DNA of 60,394 nucleotides, taken from positions 1-60,394 of IMG/VR virus record IMGVR_UViG_3300036828_000746. One strand, written 5' to 3'. This document shows, in pieces, positions 23,544 through 37,255 of the stretch (position 1 is the first letter of the stretch; every line of letters begins with the position of its first letter). The stretch is from a virus. Below the pieces are notes generated by a model, which was not told the DNA's origin, ran no database searches, and saw only the letters and a program-made list of their open reading frames with translations. Position numbers and translations under genes: made by a program.

Positions 23544-23767
23544 AGTGCAACGCAAATGTCCGTGGAGGTGGGCAGTGTCAACTTGATGCTGGCCACCGTG
23601 GGCATCATTCGACTGTGACCTACGGATGTGACGGGTGCGGCAAACGTCGTCGCGGCACTCCGTACCGCTGGTCGCCTGACGGTGAGTACGAGAGGGGCTT
23701 GGCGTTCTGCTTCATGTGCGTCCTTGAAGACGAACGGCGCGCCGAGGAGATGGGTTGGGAAGGATGA
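23540..23767 (+). CDS. Small zinc-ribbon protein
   Basis: The 75-residue product starts with GTG in a GTGA overlap. It has CQLDAGHRGHH, CDGCGKRRRG and CFMC, enough ligands for two zinc sites. The early promoter P7 lies just downstream. Confidence 0.65.
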   Translation: MKCNANVRGGGQCQLDAGHRGHHSTVTYGCDGCGKRRRGTPYRWSPDGEYERGLAFCFMCVLEDERRAEEMGWEG

Positions 23768-23823
23768 ACACGTCGCGGGAGGTGAAGGATTATCTAAGGA
23801 ACATCCGGACGCCTCCCGCGTCG

Positions 23824-23843
23824 TGTCAATATGTGGGTGTAGG
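23824..23843 (+). promoter_or_regulatory. Early promoter repeat P7
   Basis: TGTCAATATGTGGGTGTAGG, one change from consensus, 27 bases before the helicase ATG. TTATCTAAGGAACATCC (from 23791) lies upstream, matching the element before P2. Confidence 0.65.
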
Positions 23844-23870
23844 AACAAACCCGCACAACAAGGAGATCAA

Positions 23871-25721
23871 ATGACAACCACCAACACCCGCCCGCTTGAA
23901 GTAGACGGGAAGGACATCATCGTCTTCCCGCCGAAGTACCCATCCCAGGAGGTCAAGGACGAACTCGGTGGCAAGTGGGACAAGGAGCACAAGGGGTGGC
24001 GCGTTGCGCCCACCGCGCTGAACGTGCAGGTCCTCGTGTCGTGGTACGGCGAAGAGATCCTTGACGGCGCGCCCACCGCGGTACGCGAACTGTTCACCGA
24101 GGAGTGGGGATTCCCGGGATGGTACGTGCCGGGCACGACCACGCCGAACGATCACCATAACGCGTTGCGCGAGCGCGCCGAGAATCACCCGAAGTGGAAC
24201 GACCTGTATCCGTTCCAGCGGGTCGCCGTCGAATACCTCTGTACCAACCCACACCGCGGCGCGCTGCTCGCGCTGTCGCCGGGCCTGGGCAAGACGCCGG
24301 TGAGCGCCGTCGCGATGGATGTCCTCAACTGCACGCGTGTCCTCGTTCTTGCACCGCTGACGCTGGCGCGGAACTGGATCGCGGAAATGGACACGTGGTC
24401 ATGCGAGTATCGGTCGATGTCGCGTGCGACCGCCGCTGAAAAGGATCCGAAGACGGAGTTCGTCGTCACGAACTTTGAGACGCTGTTCGAAGCGATCTTC
24501 CGTGACGAGAACGGCAACGTCGTTGACGTTCCCGGCGGGCCTCGCAAGCAGAAGGAATGGATCGACGCAGGCCCGAAGAAAATCGCGCCGAACGGCAAGC
24601 GCGTACCTGCCCGGGAGCGCATCGTGCAAGCACGCAAGTCGTACGCCTCGCAGGATTGGGACCTCGTCCTTGTTGACGAGTCGATCCTCTTCAAGAACCG
24701 CAAGGCGGTCAAGGTAGGCGTCGTGCAGCAACTCGCGAAGTTCAGCAATCAGGTGTGGCTCCTGAGCGGGTCGCCAACGTCGAAGTATCGGGACGACCTG
24801 TTCCCGCAACTGCAGACGATCATGCCGCGTGGGTTCACGTCCTACTGGCGCTTCGCGGAGATGTTCACCGTAGTCGAGCGTGGCAAGTGGGGATGGGACA
24901 TCGTTGGCGATCGTCCCGGCGTTGATGTTCACTCGCTGCTGCGTGACTTCCTGTTCGCCCGCGACCAGTCAGAGGTGTTGCCTGACCTGCCGGATTACAT
25001 TTACCGCCCGATCGCGCTCAACCTGAACGCCGAGCAGGCCCGCGCACACCGCAGCATGAACGATGAGTGGATCGCGAAGGTCGAGGCAGCGATGCAAGGC
25101 GACGAGGTCAAGGCGCCGAATCGCCTCGCTCAGATGACCCGCCTGCAGCAGATCACGAGCAACACCGTGAACCTGACGAAGGACGACGGCAAGGCGTATC
25201 CGAACAGCAGCGCGAAGGAGGATGCGCTGGTCGACCTCATTGCGAACGAAGAGGTGGAGACGCCGCTGCTCGTGTGGGTCAATTACGTTCCGACCGGCGA
25301 GTCGTACAAGGCGAGGATTGAGAAGGAGTTCAAGGACCTCAGCGTCGCCTTCGTCCACGGCGACGCAACGACGACGAGCAGAAAGGCACAGCGGGAAGAC
25401 ACGCTGCAGTCTTTCAAGGACGGCAACCTCGACGTGTTGATCATGCAGTACAAGGTTGGCAAGTTCGGGCACACGTTCACGCAGACCCGCACCGTGTACT
25501 ACGCCGATCGCTCGTGGGACGCTGACGACATCGTCCAGTCGCTGCGCCGCGTGCGCCGCATTGGCCTCACGCACTCGCCCGTGTTGATCGTCCCGCGTTG
25601 CCCGGGCACGATTGATGACCTCGTAGAGAAGATCCTCGAAGGCAAGTTGACTTCGATCAGCAACGTGAGCAACGCTGACCTGATTGAGCTCCTACGCTCG
25701 CTTGGACGCGATGCCCGCTGA
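23871..25721 (+). CDS. SNF2-family DNA helicase
   Basis: This 616-residue ATPase has an N-terminal ~110-residue accessory region (DELGGKWDKEHKGWRVAP), then a superfamily 2 core: DLYPFQRVAVEYL (Q-motif-like), Walker A SPGLGKT (136-142), VLVLAPLTLARNWIAEM (Ia), LVLVDES (II, in place of DEAH), WLLSGSPTSK (III), and in the C-terminal lobe FVHGDATTTSRKAQRE and SLRRVRRIGLTHS (VI). Such enzymes remodel DNA or displace bound proteins during replication or recombination. Start ATG 23871 follows ACAACAAGGAGATCAA. Confidence 0.92.
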   Translation: MTTTNTRPLEVDGKDIIVFPPKYPSQEVKDELGGKWDKEHKGWRVAPTALNVQVLVSWYGEEILDGAPTAVRELFTEEWGFPGWYVPGTTTPNDHHNALRERAENHPKWNDLYPFQRVAVEYLCTNPHRGALLALSPGLGKTPVSAVAMDVLNCTRVLVLAPLTLARNWIAEMDTWSCEYRSMSRATAAEKDPKTEFVVTNFETLFEAIFRDENGNVVDVPGGPRKQKEWIDAGPKKIAPNGKRVPARERIVQARKSYASQDWDLVLVDESILFKNRKAVKVGVVQQLAKFSNQVWLLSGSPTSKYRDDLFPQLQTIMPRGFTSYWRFAEMFTVVERGKWGWDIVGDRPGVDVHSLLRDFLFARDQSEVLPDLPDYIYRPIALNLNAEQARAHRSMNDEWIAKVEAAMQGDEVKAPNRLAQMTRLQQITSNTVNLTKDDGKAYPNSSAKEDALVDLIANEEVETPLLVWVNYVPTGESYKARIEKEFKDLSVAFVHGDATTTSRKAQREDTLQSFKDGNLDVLIMQYKVGKFGHTFTQTRTVYYADRSWDADDIVQSLRRVRRIGLTHSPVLIVPRCPGTIDDLVEKILEGKLTSISNVSNADLIELLRSLGRDAR

Positions 25722-30076: not shown

Positions 30077-30574
30077 GTGGGCGTTCCTGCAATCCACGGT
30101 GAGGGCGTCCTTGGCAAGCAAGTCAAGGGCGCGCCCATCGGGCTCGACACGTTCGACCTCCCACCAACAGTTGTGGACGTGCGGTACACGTCAGATGAGG
30201 TGACCGCCTTGTGTCCCGTGACAGGACAACCTGATTGGTACACGGTCACGATTGCGCTCAGCGGGTCAGCACAGGGGATCGAGTCGAAGTCACTCAAATT
30301 GTACCTCCAGTCATATCGGAACGAAGGCCTGTTCTGCGAAGCGTTCGCTGATGAGGTCGCACGCGACATCGCAGCAGCAACAGGCGCGAACTCCGTCCTA
30401 GTCACTGTCAACCAGAAGCCGCGCGGGGGCATCGCGATCGAAGCACGTAGCACAGTGTGGAAGTCAACACTCGAAAAATTGGCAAGGTGTGACGATGGGG
30501 AAAGCAGTACTATCCAAGACGTTCCGATTCGAAGCGGCACATCATTTGCCGAATCACCTCGGGAAGTGCCGTGA
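30077..30574 (+). CDS. queF: QueF-like preQ0 reductase
   Basis: This 165-residue protein is the length of unimodular QueF. It has the catalytic segment LCPVTGQPDW (Cys46 nucleophile, Asp53), the QueF signature ESKSLKLYLQSYRNE (69-83) and KPRGGIAIE near 114-122. QueF reduces preQ0 to preQ1 with NADPH. Archaeal QueF-L amidinotransferases lack the ESKSLK-type motif, so a reductase is favoured. One oddity: the His that normally precedes the substrate-binding Glu (FHE) is Cys87 here (FCE). The last ~27 codons overlap queD in another frame. Start is GTG three bases after the DUF669 stop. Confidence 0.85.
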   Translation: MGVPAIHGEGVLGKQVKGAPIGLDTFDLPPTVVDVRYTSDEVTALCPVTGQPDWYTVTIALSGSAQGIESKSLKLYLQSYRNEGLFCEAFADEVARDIAAATGANSVLVTVNQKPRGGIAIEARSTVWKSTLEKLARCDDGESSTIQDVPIRSGTSFAESPREVP

Positions 30575-30938
30575 CCCTCACGGTCACTCGTACCGCGTCA
30601 CCATCAACGTCGAGGGGAAGGTGGACAAGCGCCCGGGCGAACCGACAGAAGGCATGGTCCTCGACTTCGACACGATCAGAGTAGCATGGGAAGAACACCT
30701 GAAACCGATCCTTGATCACAAGGACCTCAATGAGCAGTTCGTGTTCGTCACGACCGCTGAGAACATCGCTGCGTGGATCTTGATCGCGTTCCGTGACCGC
30801 GGGATCAACGCACACTCAGTAGATCTGTGGGAGACAGAGTCGGCGTCCGTACACGTCACATACTCAGACGTGTGGGATGACGAGTCGATGTTTCGAGCGT
30901 TGACGGCAGCAGCAATGGCGGGAGGCGAAGTAAGGTGA
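30495..30938 (+). CDS. queD: 6-carboxytetrahydropterin synthase
   Basis: This 147-residue QueD/PTPS-family enzyme converts dihydroneopterin triphosphate to 6-carboxy-tetrahydropterin. Zinc ligands and catalytic residues are present: FEAAHHLP, KCRDPHGHSY (Cys and HxH), LDHKDLN, a TAENIAAWI variant of the PTxExxA motif, and WETESASVHV. The ATG at 30495 follows AAGG; a GTG at 30489 is an alternative. It overlaps queF upstream and shares a GTGA overlap with queE. Confidence 0.93.
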   Translation: MGKAVLSKTFRFEAAHHLPNHLGKCRDPHGHSYRVTINVEGKVDKRPGEPTEGMVLDFDTIRVAWEEHLKPILDHKDLNEQFVFVTTAENIAAWILIAFRDRGINAHSVDLWETESASVHVTYSDVWDDESMFRALTAAAMAGGEVR

Positions 30939-31684
30939 GAGGCCCGCCCGTCGCTGAATTGTTCGGGCCGACAATTCAAGGCGAGGGAAAGTTCCAAGGC
31001 ATGCCCGCGTACTTCATCCGCTTCGGAGGATGTGAGTATCGTTGTGAGTGGTGCGACACGCCACACGCAGTCCTGCCGAACGTCGTGCGCACGCTGCCCC
31101 GGATGACGACTGAGGAGATTGTCGATCGCCTCAGAGTACTCCCGCCAGGTCCGCAACTGATCGTCCTTACGGGTGGCAATCCTGTCCTCCACGAACTCGG
31201 TGACTTAGTCGATGAACTGCACACACTCGACTACATCGTGTCAGTCGAAACCCAAGGAGCGAAGTTCAAACCTTGGGTCATTTGGTGCGACTCGATCTGC
31301 GTGTCTCCCAAACCGCCGTCGTCTGGACATCTGAACGCAGCACAGGACCTCGCTCAGTTCATGGATCAAGCAAAGTCAACGGGCGGCATCGCTCACCTTT
31401 TCTTCAAGGTCGTTGTGTTCGATCAGCAGGATTACGAGTGGGCCCGCACGCTTCACATGGAGTACGACACTATACCGATGTTCCTGTCTGCCGGCAACGA
31501 TGCAGGCAAGACAGTAGGCAATCCCGATCGAGTGGATGAGCGCTCACTTGACCAAATTGTCCGCGACCTGCTCGCACGAGCAAGGTGGCTCACAAACTAC
31601 ACGATGGTCGACCCCGCGATGAGCGACGTCCGGGTACAGACACAACAGCACGTCCTCTATTGGGGCAATGAGAAGGGGCATTGA
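30935..31684 (+). CDS. queE: 7-carboxy-7-deazaguanine synthase (radical SAM)
   Basis: This 249-residue radical-SAM enzyme has FGPTIQGEGKFQGMPAYFIR, the cluster motif CEYRCEWC (C-x3-C-x2-C) and a VETQG-type strand. It makes 7-carboxy-7-deazaguanine from the QueD product. The usual LTGGEP is LTGGNP here, a substitution in the SAM-binding region whose effect cannot be judged from sequence alone. The GTG start overlaps the queD stop. It is followed by a small gene and then folE. Confidence 0.93.
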   Translation: MRGPPVAELFGPTIQGEGKFQGMPAYFIRFGGCEYRCEWCDTPHAVLPNVVRTLPRMTTEEIVDRLRVLPPGPQLIVLTGGNPVLHELGDLVDELHTLDYIVSVETQGAKFKPWVIWCDSICVSPKPPSSGHLNAAQDLAQFMDQAKSTGGIAHLFFKVVVFDQQDYEWARTLHMEYDTIPMFLSAGNDAGKTVGNPDRVDERSLDQIVRDLLARARWLTNYTMVDPAMSDVRVQTQQHVLYWGNEKGH

Positions 31685-31690
31685 GAAGAC

Positions 31691-31921
31691 ATGGTAACTG
31701 AACTATCAAACGGAGCAACCGATTCACCCCGCGGGTCCTTGAAAGATGCTTTGATGCGCATAGATTCCTGCGCCGATGAGATCCTCCACCAACTCACGAA
31801 ACCAGGCACAAGCAGGGACCCAGTCAAGGCAATGGAGGATGTCCTCGCGCGATGCCAAGCGGTCAAGGTCAAGACAGAGCAGATCAAAGTACAATCATCC
31901 CATTGGCGCCTGTATGTCTGA
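31691..31921 (+). CDS. Small helical protein between queE and folE
   Basis: This 76-residue helical protein reads [19 protein letters not shown] and then a second helix ([20 protein letters not shown]). It overlaps folE by eight bases. No known role; its place in the pathway cluster suggests co-expression only. Confidence 0.65.
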
Positions 31922-32486
31922 CGCATACAGTACCGAGGACCTGATCGCCGGCAGCGTACGCGAAATCTTAGAGTGCATACCCGACGGGATACGCGAAGGC
32001 ACAGACGACACTCCGCAGCGCGTAGCGCGGATGTACGTTCGCGAACTGTTCGCTGGGTATGAGGTCGATATCAAAGAACTGTTCCGCACGTTCGACCATG
32101 AAGGGTACGATGGGATGATCGTGGTCAAGGACATCCCGCTCGTGTCACTGTGCGAACACCACCTTGTCCCGTTCGTCGGATGGGCGCACGTCGGGTACTT
32201 CCCAAACGGCAATGTCCTTGGGTTGTCGAAGGTCGCTCGCGTCGTCAACGCCTTCGCCCGTCGCCTTCAGATACAGGAGCGCCTCACGCGCCAAGTCGCC
32301 GACGCAATGGAGGAATGGCTACACCCACGCGGGGTGATCGTCGTCGTAGAAGCAGAACACATGTGCATCACCATCCGCGGTGCGCAAGCGCCCGGGACCC
32401 GCGCAATCACCTCGGCGGTGCGTGGGTTGTTCAACACGAACACTGAAGGCGAGAAAGAAGAATTCTTTCGCCTGATCCACCGATAG
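31914..32486 (+). CDS. folE: GTP cyclohydrolase I
   Basis: This 190-residue enzyme converts GTP to 7,8-dihydroneopterin triphosphate, the first step toward 7-deazaguanines. The zinc/active-site motifs are LCEHHLVPF and [28 protein letters not shown] and [19 protein letters not shown] are strongly conserved FolE segments. The ATG at 31914 is chosen; an upstream in-frame extension lies inside the previous gene. Having its own FolE makes the pathway independent of host pterin supply. Confidence 0.96.
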
Positions 32487-32496
32487 GAGATTACTG

Positions 32497-32685
32497 ATGG
32501 ATGAATTCCCGATCTTGAGGTTCTTCGAGTATGAACATTTGCCGCTTGCCAGTCAGGCGATCAGCATTCCGTTCCACGATCTCGCACACCGAATGGTAGA
32601 CGCTTTGCCTGCCACGGCCGAAGTCAGCGCTGGGTTGCGTAAGTTGCTCGAAGCCAAGGATTGCTTCGTACGCGCTGGGCTGTAA
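32497..32685 (+). CDS. Small conserved actinophage protein (RFFEYEHLP family)
   Basis: The 62-residue product contains LRFFEYEHLPLASQ, FHDLAHRMVDALP and GLRKLLEAKDCFVRAG, a short family I know from many actinobacteriophages, of unknown function. It is preceded by TAGGAG and lies between folE and a zinc-ribbon gene. Confidence 0.8.
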   Translation: MDEFPILRFFEYEHLPLASQAISIPFHDLAHRMVDALPATAEVSAGLRKLLEAKDCFVRAGL

Positions 32686-32688
32686 GAC

Positions 32689-32877
32689 GTGGACGTTGAA
32701 ATCTGGATCTGCCCGCGGTGCCTGCGTTACTACGCAGCAAGCGGTGCTGGTGACTTGACTGCCCAAATGAACACAGACGAGAAGAACCGCCCGACGTTCC
32801 CGCGCTCACGTTGTCCTACTTGCGAAATACCACGGGTCCTACATCACGTCGAAGTACAAGTAGAAAGGCAGGAATGA
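32689..32877 (+). CDS. Small zinc-ribbon protein
   Basis: This 62-residue protein has WICPRCLRYY and SRCPTCEIP, two zinc knuckles. It starts with GTG and its TGA overlaps the queC ATG. A role in the modification pathway is not evident. Confidence 0.65.
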   Translation: MDVEIWICPRCLRYYAASGAGDLTAQMNTDEKNRPTFPRSRCPTCEIPRVLHHVEVQVERQE

Positions 32878-33584
32878 TGGATACGATTGTACTGCTAAGC
32901 GGAGGACAGGACAGCACGACGGTTCTCGCCTGGGCGTTGCGCGACCTCGGGGAGGCGCGGACAGTATCATTCGACTACGGGCAACGCCATCGTGTCGAAC
33001 TCGAACAATCAGAGAAGATCTCGAAGACGCTTGGCGCTCAATCGCACATCGTCCTTCCAGTCGAAGCGCTCAAAGTCCTCGGCGGTGCAGCGCTGACAAA
33101 TGACGGGATCGCAGTAGAAGCGGAGGCAGGACCTGACTCGCTCAACATGCACGCGTTCAACCATGGATTGCCGTCAACGTTCGTGCCCGGGCGGAACATG
33201 TTGTTCCTCACGCTCGCTGCTGCGTACGGTGCGAAGTTCGGGATCTACGATCTCGTGACCGGAGTATGTGGACAAGACCGCGCGGGGTATCCTGACTGCC
33301 GCGCTGAGTTCGTCACAGCAGCGGAAGTCGCGTTGACAGCAGCGCTCGATGAGAAAGTCACGATCACTGCACCGCTCCTCGACTACACGAAAGCCCAGAC
33401 ATGGTCGCTCGCAGAAGAGTTAGGAGTCCTTGATGTCATCATCGAACTCACCCACACCTGCTACCACGGCGAACATAACCTCAGGTTCGAGTGGGGATTC
33501 GGATGCGGCGTGTGCCCCGCTTGCGAAGAACGCGCCCGTGGGTGGGAAGAGTACGTTCATCCGACCATCATCAATCCTCGCTGA
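32874..33584 (+). CDS. queC: 7-cyano-7-deazaguanine (preQ0) synthase
   Basis: This 236-residue PP-loop enzyme uses ATP and ammonia to make preQ0 from 7-carboxy-7-deazaguanine. It has the P-loop LLSGGQDSTT, VSFDYGQRHR, STFVPGRNMLFLTLA and the C-terminal zinc site with CGVCPACEERARG. No glutamine amidotransferase domain is fused, so this is not the Gat-QueC of archaeosine-type phages. Of two consecutive ATGs the first forms an ATGA overlap with the upstream stop and has AAAGG at good spacing. Confidence 0.96.
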   Translation: MMDTIVLLSGGQDSTTVLAWALRDLGEARTVSFDYGQRHRVELEQSEKISKTLGAQSHIVLPVEALKVLGGAALTNDGIAVEAEAGPDSLNMHAFNHGLPSTFVPGRNMLFLTLAAAYGAKFGIYDLVTGVCGQDRAGYPDCRAEFVTAAEVALTAALDEKVTITAPLLDYTKAQTWSLAEELGVLDVIIELTHTCYHGEHNLRFEWGFGCGVCPACEERARGWEEYVHPTIINPR

Positions 33585-33852
33585 AGCAGACGCGATCGTC
33601 TCGGGGGAGCGCTGGGAAGAACATGGGCATCCCGCACCTAACCTCGAACGTGTCGCTGGCATGTGGCGAGCGACGTTCGGATGGGACGCTACGGGGGAGG
33701 ACGTTGCACTTGCCATGATCCTGTTCAAGGTTGCTCGCGCCAAGGCCGGCCACACGCGGGACAACCTCGTAGACATCGCCGGATACGCCCGAACTATCGA
33801 GATGATATGGGACCTGAGCAATGAAGACGGCACTGATTCCTCCCGTACCTGA
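33538..33852 (+). CDS. DUF6378-like protein
   Basis: The family-like part is SILAEADAIVSGERWEEHGH, then NLERVAGMW and LAMILFKVARAKAGHTRDNL-VDIAGYA, which I recognise as the DUF6378 pattern seen in phages. The likely start is GTG at 33538 inside the queC 3' end, giving 104 residues. The 3' end overlaps dpdA by 32 bases. Its biochemical function is not established. Confidence 0.75.
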   Translation: MGGKSTFIRPSSILAEADAIVSGERWEEHGHPAPNLERVAGMWRATFGWDATGEDVALAMILFKVARAKAGHTRDNLVDIAGYARTIEMIWDLSNEDGTDSSRT

Positions 33853-34648
33853 CCTGACCCACCACGCGACAACAGACATCCACCTGTTGCTATCGCACCT
33901 GACGCACTACCCGGGTTACCTTGATTTCTACCGCAAGCGCGGACGACAAGGCGATTACCTGATCTTGGACAACAGCGCCCACGAGCATGGGCACGGCAAC
34001 AGAGCACAGGAACTGCTGTTTCAAGCGATGGTCGTCGGAGCACACGAAGTCGTCTGCTCAGATGTGTTGTTCGACGCACACGGCACAGCTCAGGCGTCTG
34101 AGGCGATGATGCGCTACATCTCCTCCGACTACGGTTGGGAGTCGTACATGACGGCAGGATCGCCGCGCCTGATGCTCGTCCCACAAGGTAAGACGGAGCG
34201 CGAAGTCGAACAATGCCTCCACCGTCTGATCTTCCTGTGGACGGTTCACATGGAGCGATTGTCAACTCATCCGCCCGTGATCGGAATCTCGAAGGACTAC
34301 GACGACGAGATCATGGACGGCGGGATCGCGGGGTTCATTGCGAAGTACTGTGAGCCGATCCGAAACCGTCTCAACATCGACGTCCATTGCTTGGGGTGGC
34401 CGAAGAACCTATGGTCGCTTTCTGAAGTGCACCGCCAGGCGCCGTGGGTGCGCTCCGTTGACTCGGCCAAACCGTTCGTCTACGCTCGTGCGGGCATCCG
34501 TCTCGAACCAGGAGGCGACGTTCCGACGTACCCTCATCGCACCCCCGATTACTTCAATACCGCATTAGGTCGATGCACTAACATTGCCCAGGTCAACGTC
34601 GAGGTGTTTCAGGCCGCTGCAAGCAACGAATTGATCTTGGCGACCTAG
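33821..34648 (+). CDS. dpdA: DNA 7-deazaguanine transglycosylase
   Basis: This 275-residue TGT-like protein is the phage DpdA that swaps guanine in DNA for a 7-deazaguanine base. Family-like segments are LILDNSAHEHG (Asp50), VVCSDVLFD (Asp81, Asp85), LMLVPQGKT, PPVIGISKD, VHCLGWP and VRSVDSAKP. The last contains Asp214, which by analogy to TGT is the candidate nucleophile (inference). The sequence is shorter than tRNA TGT and lacks its C-terminal zinc site, as DpdA proteins do. It is the last gene of the queF-queD-queE-folE-queC run. Confidence 0.87.
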   Translation: MKTALIPPVPDLTHHATTDIHLLLSHLTHYPGYLDFYRKRGRQGDYLILDNSAHEHGHGNRAQELLFQAMVVGAHEVVCSDVLFDAHGTAQASEAMMRYISSDYGWESYMTAGSPRLMLVPQGKTEREVEQCLHRLIFLWTVHMERLSTHPPVIGISKDYDDEIMDGGIAGFIAKYCEPIRNRLNIDVHCLGWPKNLWSLSEVHRQAPWVRSVDSAKPFVYARAGIRLEPGGDVPTYPHRTPDYFNTALGRCTNIAQVNVEVFQAAASNELILAT

Positions 34649-34762: not shown

Positions 34763-37255
34763 ATGGGAGATTTCTGTGTAACTGACCGGTGTCGATCGTG
34801 CCCGATCACAAAACCGGCACAGATCACCCGGCAAAACCCGGGAGCAGACATCGCGCTCGTAGTCGATTTTCCGACGTACGAGGACACCGTTCGCGGCACA
34901 TTCCTCCAAGGTCAATCGGGCATCCTCGCACGTCGCACTCTTGAGGAGTATGGCATCGACGTGGACGATTGCTACATCACGTCAGCGCTCAACTGCAAAC
35001 CCGCGAAGGACAAGAAGGGCGCGCTCAAGAACGCCATGCTGTCGTGTCGTCAGCGCCTTGTAGACGAACTCCACGAGGTCAACCCCACGAAGGTGCTGTC
35101 CCTGGGCCCGCTCGGCTTCTCCGCACTTAGATCAGCGCCTGATAACTATCCGATCACGAAGGTCAGAGGACGCTGGCATCGCTGTTTCGGGATAGACGTA
35201 CTCGCGACGTTCTCACCTGTCACCCTCATGGGCGCGTTTGAGTATTTCCGTGACTTCGAGTGGGACGTCCAAAAGTTCGCGACGACGCAACCTGAACCTA
35301 CGCCCCGCGTGGAAATGTGGGTGCCGGACACGATCGCAGAGGCACACCTTGCGTTCGATTACATCTCCGGCGCTTCGTTCGTCTCCCTCGACATCGAATC
35401 AACAGGTTTCTCGCCGTACCGCAACGAACTGCTCGCCGTCGGCCTCGGTGTGCTGTTCGAGGATTCAACGGACGGCGTCTCGATCGTGTTCGACAAAGAC
35501 CTACTCGACAGTCGCGACGTATGGGAGGAGTTCGAGTACCTCCTTCAACGCGAGGACCAAGCGACCGTCATGCACAACGCCAAGTTTGACCTCAAGTGGA
35601 TGAAGGCATCGCTTGAAGCAATGGGCCTTGAGTTTGTGCCCCGTCGCATCGAAGACACGATGTTGCTCAACTACTGCCTCGATGAGCGGGCGATGGGGCA
35701 ATTCCAGTCGCACTCGCTCAAGAACATGGCGCGCGTTCGCTGCGATGCTCCTGACTACGACATCGAGATGGGCAAGTGGATCAAGGCGTGGACCGTTGCG
35801 AACGACACACAACGAGACATCCTGCGTGCGAAGATGCGCACGTACCTCTCGCTCGACTGCTACTACACAGCGCGTTTGTTCTCGCAACTACCGGACGAGG
35901 TCGCGGAGGAATCCATTGGCCTCATGTCACTCTACACCAACCTGTTGATCCCGGGCGCGCTCGCATTGTGCGACATTGAGTCCCACGGCGTCGCGATCGA
36001 CCGCAAGTTCTACGAAGACACGTGGGCGACGATTCAGGAACGTGCCGCGCCTATCCTCGCCCGCGTTCGCGAGCAAACGGGCCTTGAGGAGTTCAATCCG
36101 AACTCCCCGCAACAGGTTCGGAAGTACCTGTACGAGATCAACGACCTGCCCGTCCTGCGCACCGCGCGGCGCGGCAAGTTGCAGGAAGGACCGACATCCA
36201 AACCGGTCCTCAAAATGTTGAAGAAGGAGTTCCCGTCCTACGCCCAAGTGATTGACGACATCTTGGAGTACCGAAACCTCGTCAAGACAGCAGGCACGTA
36301 CGTCAAGGGGATGATGGATCGCGCGGACGACGATGACCGCATCCGTGGTGACTTCCTGCAGCACGGCACGTCAACAGGTCGCCTGTCGTCATCTAACCCC
36401 AACCTGCAGAACATCCCGGAGACATCCCACACGAAGATCGAGATCCGGAACGGGTTCGTCGCGCCGCCTGACTTCGTGCTCCTCAACGCTGATTACTCCC
36501 AGCTTGAACTGCGACTCGCTGCTCACCTCTCGAACGATGAAAACTTCTCCGCCGTCTTCATCGAGGGACGCGATCCGCACCAGGAGGTTGCGTTCGCATT
36601 CTTCGACAAGCCAGAGGATCAAATCTCGCCTTACGAACGCTACATGGCAAAGTGCGTAAACTTCGGCGTCGCATACGGTCGAGGCGCCGAGTCGATTGCG
36701 CTCGGCCCGGAGATGGAGTACGTTGAGGAGATCGGCGGGCAACGTTGGTCGGTTGAGCAGGTCAAGCAATTCTTCACTGCGTACTTCGATCACTTCCCAG
36801 AATTCCTCGCGTGGTGCGAGGATCAGAAGCGCTTTGCTTATCGACACCAGTACGTCGAATCGCCTCTTGGCCGCAGACGACGGTTCCCGTTGATCCTGCG
36901 CAACGACGCCGGCGCGGTCGGCAGGCAAGCAGTGAACACACCGATCCAAGGCACAGCAAGCGACTTCACGTTCAGCGCGCTCATCCGCATCCACAAGCGT
37001 TTGTGTGACCTCAACGCTCGCTGTGGGCGTGTTGTCGCCTTCATCGTGTCGACTGTCCATGACTCGCTGCTGATCGAATGTCATAAGCGCTACGTCAGGA
37101 AGGTTACCGCGATCGTGCACCAGGAGATGGAGAACGTCCCACTTGCATCACGCGTCCCCTTCGAGTGTGAGGTGAAGATCGGAACGCGGTGGGGCGACCT
37201 ACACAAGATCGACAAGGAGGAGGACGTTGCGATCGCTACAGCGTCCGACGACTGA
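34763..37255 (+). CDS. polA: Family A DNA polymerase with N-terminal UDG-like domain
   Basis: This 830-residue polymerase has three parts. Residues 1-175 resemble family-4 uracil-DNA glycosylase, with four candidate Fe-S cysteines (10, 13, 78, 95), TSALNCKP and ITKVRGRWH, but the GEAPG loop is VDFPT and the HPA motif is SPV, so glycosylase activity is doubtful. Residues ~205-375 are a 3'-5' exonuclease with all motifs: DIE (210-212), HNAKFD (271-276) and YLSLD (361-365). The polymerase has motif A DYSQLELR (577-584), B KCVNFGVAYG (630-639) and C VHDSLLIE. It likely replicates the genome using a modified-base template. Confidence 0.94.
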   Translation: MGDFCVTDRCRSCPITKPAQITRQNPGADIALVVDFPTYEDTVRGTFLQGQSGILARRTLEEYGIDVDDCYITSALNCKPAKDKKGALKNAMLSCRQRLVDELHEVNPTKVLSLGPLGFSALRSAPDNYPITKVRGRWHRCFGIDVLATFSPVTLMGAFEYFRDFEWDVQKFATTQPEPTPRVEMWVPDTIAEAHLAFDYISGASFVSLDIESTGFSPYRNELLAVGLGVLFEDSTDGVSIVFDKDLLDSRDVWEEFEYLLQREDQATVMHNAKFDLKWMKASLEAMGLEFVPRRIEDTMLLNYCLDERAMGQFQSHSLKNMARVRCDAPDYDIEMGKWIKAWTVANDTQRDILRAKMRTYLSLDCYYTARLFSQLPDEVAEESIGLMSLYTNLLIPGALALCDIESHGVAIDRKFYEDTWATIQERAAPILARVREQTGLEEFNPNSPQQVRKYLYEINDLPVLRTARRGKLQEGPTSKPVLKMLKKEFPSYAQVIDDILEYRNLVKTAGTYVKGMMDRADDDDRIRGDFLQHGTSTGRLSSSNPNLQNIPETSHTKIEIRNGFVAPPDFVLLNADYSQLELRLAAHLSNDENFSAVFIEGRDPHQEVAFAFFDKPEDQISPYERYMAKCVNFGVAYGRGAESIALGPEMEYVEEIGGQRWSVEQVKQFFTAYFDHFPEFLAWCEDQKRFAYRHQYVESPLGRRRRFPLILRNDAGAVGRQAVNTPIQGTASDFTFSALIRIHKRLCDLNARCGRVVAFIVSTVHDSLLIECHKRYVRKVTAIVHQEMENVPLASRVPFECEVKIGTRWGDLHKIDKEEDVAIATASDD

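Follow-up and report, generated by a model that had tools for sequence, protein, structure and literature searches.

A phage gene cassette predicted to make preQ1-modified DNA, with a divergent DpdA whose loop aspartate tracks with QueF

Phages that carry 7-deazaguanine bases in their DNA defeat many restriction enzymes, and the base that a given phage uses is usually guessed from its gene content. One such base is preQ1, which is made from preQ0 and is found in DNA as dPreQ1. It has been measured in the virion DNA of two viruses, at about 1.7% of G in phage Dp-1 and about 30% of G in HVTV-1 (PMC6884629). Given these two viruses, and given the GenBank entries of actinophages that have the same genes, the kind of system that we describe here is already known. 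Our locus is a gene cassette in the IMG/VR contig IMGVR_UViG_3300036828_000746, which is 60,394 bases of DNA from an uncultured phage (this whole stretch is the window), and the region that we studied covers positions 30077-34648 on the plus strand. We put the probability at about 0.72 that this cassette makes preQ1-modified phage DNA, in which case guanosine triphosphate (GTP) would be converted to preQ0, free preQ0 would be reduced to preQ1, and the transglycosylase DpdA would insert preQ1 into the DNA.

A preliminary description of this DNA had claimed a complete pathway from GTP to preQ1 together with a DNA transglycosylase on the plus strand. All six genes are there between 30077 and 34648, and their occurrence together is not due to chance. 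The description also named dPreQ1 as the likeliest product, and this is likely right, as predicted from gene content, motifs and the DpdA loop. It mentioned dPreQ1 for an archaeal virus; the base is also known, by measurement, from bacteriophage Dp-1, whose genes form the same set (PMC6884629). What our analysis shows is which genes are present, their conserved motifs, predicted folds, synteny and selection, and an association between QueF and one residue of DpdA.

The cassette opens with QueF, the preQ0 reductase or preQ1 synthase (30077..30574, unimodular, 165 amino acids, GTG start). QueD, a 6-carboxy-tetrahydropterin synthase (30495..30938), scores 97.7 bits with PF01242, clearly above cut-off, and 85.8 bits with TIGR03367, slightly below the 89.25 cut-off of the latter. 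QueE (30935..31684) is above the cut-off of TIGR03365 with 224.8 bits, and FolE, or GTP cyclohydrolase I (31914..32486), is above those of both PF01227 (218.6 bits) and TIGR00063 (207.6 bits). The preliminary description took FolE as a sign that the host pool is inadequate, but FolE is present in most related cassettes and says little about the pool. QueC, the preQ0 synthase (32877..33584), scores 226.7 bits with PF06508 and 218 bits with TIGR00364, above the cut-off of TIGR00364. As had been described, it stands alone: it is 235 amino acids long with no extra domain, and searches of the whole record gave neither an ArcS-type (PF17884) nor a GATase_6 (PF13522) domain. For these reasons we rejected a Gat-QueC or ArcS route to archaeosine. 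We also found no further preQ1-tailoring enzyme (methyl- or formyltransferase) among the roughly 20 other window proteins that we scanned. The same cassette is found in a sibling contig (L008), with protein identities of 75–79%, and the ratio of nonsynonymous to synonymous change (dN/dS) between the two is 0.13–0.22 across the six pathway genes. This is purifying selection, so the cassette genes are being maintained.

The last cassette gene (33821..34648) is predicted to encode a DpdA-like DNA guanine transglycosylase of a divergent subfamily. As a single sequence the open reading frame (ORF) had no match in Pfam, NCBIfam or the PDB and found no relatives in viral contigs; only an alignment profile finds them. 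The alignment-based scan of viral contigs gave 101 relatives, 80 of which were kept, and nearly all of these 80 loci adjoin QueC, QueD, QueE or FolE and usually lie directly upstream of DNA polymerase A (PolA). The family profile has a single significant match in the PDB, the DNA-guanine transglycosylase DpdA (7ui4, E 5e-4). Structural modelling of DpdA and QueF had been proposed as a check, and it came out in favor of both assignments. For DpdA, the AlphaFold2 model (pLDDT 95.8) is a (beta/alpha)8 barrel with the fold of tRNA-guanine transglycosylase (TGT), and Foldseek gave a probability of 1.00 to TGTs and to 7ui4. Across 53 sequences D50, H189, G192 and D214 never vary and D81 and Q122 hardly do, and in the model the conserved residues are at the C-terminal ends of barrel strands. 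The window protein keeps the catalytic aspartates, and also the His that marks 9g-type enzymes.

At E<=0.01 the window profile did not match the enzymes of nt-1 (a DpdA2), Dp-1 or Rinkes, and we therefore treat the window DpdA as a separate subfamily. We considered that it might be an nt-1-type DpdA2 and rejected this, because the profile had no match in the nt-1 genome at that threshold and because the window protein keeps the His that is said to be missing from DpdA2 (PMC6884629). The only isolates in which we found the window subfamily are the Bacillus phages BSP7/BSTP and the Weizmannia phage Youna2, where it is annotated as hypothetical or misnamed. Judged by sequence, this widespread and mostly unannotated DpdA subfamily beside phage PolA is new here. 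As a separate observation, HVTV-1 reportedly has no DpdA. Its gene 69 (L109, 33803-34963, minus strand) encodes a DUF6610 protein (PF20314, 190.8 bits) beside FolE, with the TGT-like motifs HLLGG and VSIDG, and DUF6610 is also matched by 12 of the 53 window-type DpdAs. The protein may be a candidate for the missing transglycosylase.

One loop of DpdA tracks with QueF. In TGT the loop Leu231-Glu235 adapts to the aminomethyl group of preQ1 (PMC3660597), and it corresponds to G155-I-S-K-D159-Y160 in the window DpdA. The codon of Asp159, the predicted base-selectivity residue, is at 34295..34297. Among the loci collected first, Asp159 was found in all of those with QueF and in none of those that have a complete preQ0 cassette but no QueF. 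A second scan, made after the pattern had been seen, found Asp in 24/24 new QueF-bearing loci and in 0/5 new QueF-less full cassettes. After near-copies were removed, Asp159 was present in 32/32 loci with QueF versus 0/37 without, and this is the only alignment column that separates the two groups perfectly. Asp-type DpdAs co-occur with unimodular and bimodular QueFs alike. Searches of the whole contigs of the QueF-less records tested found no QueF above cut-off. There were weak PF14489 matches in QueF-less contigs, all of them below cut-off, which we took as FolE cross-matches because the analogous weak match in the window falls in FolE. A similar division is seen in 9g-type DpdAs: the loop contains an Asp, as [GC][IV]SPxND, in four phages with QueF (Dp-1, Mufasa8, Cellulophaga phi38:2 and R26L), and reads GG(M/L)VG or GKLLG in four without it (CAjan, 9g, Arbiter of the Rosebush species, and Bipper). 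Dp-1 DNA contains dPreQ1 and no detectable dPreQ0, and the DNA of CAjan and Rosebush contains dPreQ0 (PMC6884629).

The link between Asp159 and QueF favors, as far as sequence goes, a route in which free preQ1 from QueF would be inserted directly by DpdA. This is opposite to the published proposal for Dp-1 and HVTV-1 (PMC8306585), in which insertion comes first: DpdA places preQ0 in DNA and QueF then reduces the DNA-bound dPreQ0 to dPreQ1. The order was left open in PMC6884629. Insertion first would fit with archaeal QueF-L, which acts on preQ0-tRNA, and with the phages Rinkes and Funsized, in which QueF occurs alongside a preQ0-like loop in DpdA. However, the perfect tracking of Asp159 with QueF would be unexpected if DpdA always met preQ0, and cellular QueFs that resemble that of the window belong to pathways that reduce free preQ0. 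We think it unlikely that insertion comes first in the window phage. That Asp159 acts as a switch and gives this DpdA subfamily its specificity for preQ1, that the QueF phages insert preQ1 directly, and that the published order is wrong for them, we hold to be slightly better than an even bet. Funsized and Rinkes, with their QueF and preQ0-like loop, offer a natural case in which reduction after insertion could be put to the test.

Several points weigh against direct insertion of preQ1, or against dPreQ1 itself. On the DpdA tree, 4 changes are needed to explain which loci have QueF, so there are few independent lineage changes. The loci are therefore not 69 independent points and a Fisher p-value overstates the association; what supports it is a small number of concordant changes together with deep conservation. 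Two loci (L108 and L272) have the Asp, in a loop ICIPFDVP, with QueF absent from their 43.7 and 124.9 kb of sequence. They are also without most preQ0 genes and may rely on host preQ1. The QueF-bearing mycobacteriophages Rinkes (L003) and Funsized (L278) have the preQ0-like loop GGMVG in a different DpdA, and the Asp rule therefore does not hold in every DpdA family. The placement of Asp159 in the pocket is predicted from strand ends and alignment, and dPreQ1 in the window phage is itself a prediction from sequence and models. Finally, the window QueF is without the usual catalytic His.

Apart from this, sequence and model support the QueF assignment. The protein scores 53.6 bits with PF14489 (cut-off 27.3) and 76.9 bits with TIGR03139, slightly below the equivalog cut-off of 86.9. 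QueF has been defined by Cys55, Asp62, Glu97 and a QueF motif with Glu78 (PMC5372742). The catalytic Cys and Asp (B. subtilis Cys55 and Asp62) are kept in the window as Cys46 and Asp53 in CPVTGQPD, the NADPH-binding motif E(S/L)K(S/A)hK(L/Y)(Y/F/W) is kept as ESKSLKLY, and the counterpart of the substrate-anchoring Glu97 is Glu88, which is invariant in our QueF alignment. The first structural match of the model is the B. subtilis nitrile reductase QueF (4f8b), ahead of QueF-L. The exception is the active-site His beside the anchoring Glu (V. cholerae H233), which is present in characterised QueFs and absent from the definers in PMC5372742. In the window it is Cys87 (codon 30335..30337). This change, like the divergence of DpdA, had been overlooked in the preliminary description. 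Both viral QueFs with measured dPreQ1 keep the His, in Dp-1 (FHE) and in HVTV-1 (SHE). The Cys form is common to most QueFs of the window's viral clade, to the actinophages Rinkes and Mufasa8, and to a Moorella QueF.

Moorella mulderi is informative, as its genome, which also has TGT and QueA, encodes no QueF other than the Cys-type one. The gene follows immediately after that of a queuosine-precursor transporter (TIGR00697, above cut-off) and overlaps its end, and the protein is above the preQ1-synthase equivalog cut-off (108.8 vs 86.9). Another Cys-type QueF lies in a QueC-QueD-QueE-QueF run in an Actinomycetota metagenome-assembled genome. Because these cellular relatives sit in ordinary queuosine pathways, the Cys-type QueF is probably a working preQ1 synthase that acts on free preQ0. 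We had considered the Cys form as a purely viral invention and rejected this, since bacteria have it too. As far as we can tell from alignments, the Cys-for-His variant across phages and some bacteria is new here. Other residues also occur at this site: cellular QueF homologues L113-L119, L121, L123, L128 and L142 have Ala or Asn, and some of them are beside QueC and QueE.

A different reading of Cys87 is that the QueF homologue is a QueF-L-type amidotransferase, or is crippled by the change, so that the DNA would carry archaeosine (dG+), dPreQ0 or an aldehyde/imine by-product. The loss of the His is what suggests it, and QueF and QueF-L are hard to distinguish by sequence (PMC6884629). However, the window protein keeps the NADPH motif, its dN/dS against L008 is 0.125, its top structural match is to a QueF, and cellular Cys-type QueFs are the sole QueF in genomes with TGT and QueA. 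Phage Dp-1, whose enzyme was predicted by HHpred to be a QueF-L, contained dPreQ1 and no dG+ (PMC6884629). We judge this alternative to be quite improbable, and the idea that His-to-Cys by itself makes QueF an amidotransferase is weakened by Moorella and the other cellular cases. We give even less credence to a pathway that serves host tRNA (queuosine) or mixed purposes, with a DpdA-like protein that acts on RNA: QueF and preQ1 are the normal precursor route to queuosine and cellular TGT-fold enzymes act on tRNA, but the only significant PDB match of the family profile is a DNA enzyme, the DpdA gene adjoins PolA in most relatives, and there are no QueA- or QueG-type genes among the window ORFs scanned.

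We therefore return to preQ1-modified DNA made by direct insertion. FolE, QueD, QueE and QueC would take GTP to preQ0, and the NADPH-dependent phage QueF would turn free preQ0 into preQ1, with Cys46 acting as thioimide nucleophile and Cys87 standing where the His usually is. DpdA, with Asp214 as the probable nucleophile, would then exchange guanine in the phage DNA for preQ1, whose aminomethyl group would be recognised by the loop with Asp159. The most likely role of the dPreQ1, judging from HVTV-1 and CAjan, is to protect the genome against restriction enzymes of the host. We infer this role, as well as the chemistry and whether reduction precedes insertion. If Asp159 is the predicted switch, the genome sequence of an uncultured phage would be enough to tell its DNA base, from the DpdA loop together with QueF. 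The tracking of Asp159 with QueF also makes reduction of preQ0 before versus after insertion testable with one enzyme and one substitution. In the literature that we searched we found no mention of the divergent DpdA subfamily, the Cys-type QueF or the link between Asp159 and QueF, although an earlier mention of the loop is possible.

On the plus strand the gene order is QueF, QueD, QueE, a small ORF, FolE, two small ORFs, QueC, a DUF6378 ORF, DpdA and PolA. The small ORF between QueE and FolE (31691..31921) has no confident family and no blastp match in L008. The next (32497..32685) matches PHROG 1761/5120, and the third (32689..32877) has two CxxC pairs, possibly a zinc ribbon, and is 76% conserved in L008. 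The DUF6378 ORF (33430..33852; PF19905, 77.7 bits) overlaps the end of QueC and its start codon is uncertain. It recurs beside DpdA in L029-L033, L035 and L059, and lies between QueC and DpdA in several QueF-bearing relatives; with a dN/dS of 0.45 against L008 it evolves faster than its neighbours. PolA (34763..37255), the conserved downstream neighbour, is outside the pathway. Further away, a SNF2-family helicase at 23628-25721 is upstream of DUF460 (RuvC-like), PD-(D/E)XK nuclease and AAA_24 genes.

The host is a separate matter. The record has a GC content of 59%, and we found no direct terminal repeat of 11–200 bases in it. It encodes a baseplate J protein, which suggests a contractile-tailed phage. 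The preliminary description had treated this as an actinophage, a label that is unproven: there is no tRNA in the record, the terminase has no relative among 50,697 phage records, and a DNA-level search of the phage records with the cassette gave no match. We tried to assign a host by the terminase or PolA and got no useful signal.

Compared with the known systems, the halovirus HVTV-1 is similar in having QueF, the preQ0 genes and dPreQ1 in its DNA (PMC6884629), but its QueF keeps the His and by profile it has no window-type DpdA. Streptococcus phage Dp-1, where dPreQ1 was measured, has the same enzyme set (QueF, QueC, QueD, QueE, FolE and DpdA); it differs in its His-bearing QueF, a 9g-type DpdA and the transporter QueT. 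The closest QueFs from isolates, with 42–45% identity to that of the window, are from Rinkes, Funsized and Knocker (Mycobacterium) and Mufasa8 (Arthrobacter), so actinophages are already among the carriers of such genes, a link that the preliminary description lacked: Rinkes and Mufasa8 share the His-to-Cys change and carry DpdA, QueC, QueD, QueE and FolE in GenBank, and Funsized and Knocker have QueF. Their DpdAs, however, are of other, 9g-like subfamilies that do not adjoin PolA, with the preQ0-like loop in Rinkes and Funsized. BSP7/BSTP and Youna2 have the window-subfamily DpdA (hypothetical in BSP7 and Youna2) beside QueC, QueD, QueE, FolE and PolA, but there is no QueF in the cassette, the loop is GIPK without the Asp, and dPreQ0 is predicted. 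Finally, 7ui4 and bacterial TGT share with the window enzyme the TGT fold, the conserved region of the Asp nucleophile and the H-x-L-G motif. The difference lies in the loop, as 7ui4, for which insertion of preQ0 is described, has GGMV-PL without an acid, whereas the window enzyme has G-I-S-K-D-Y.

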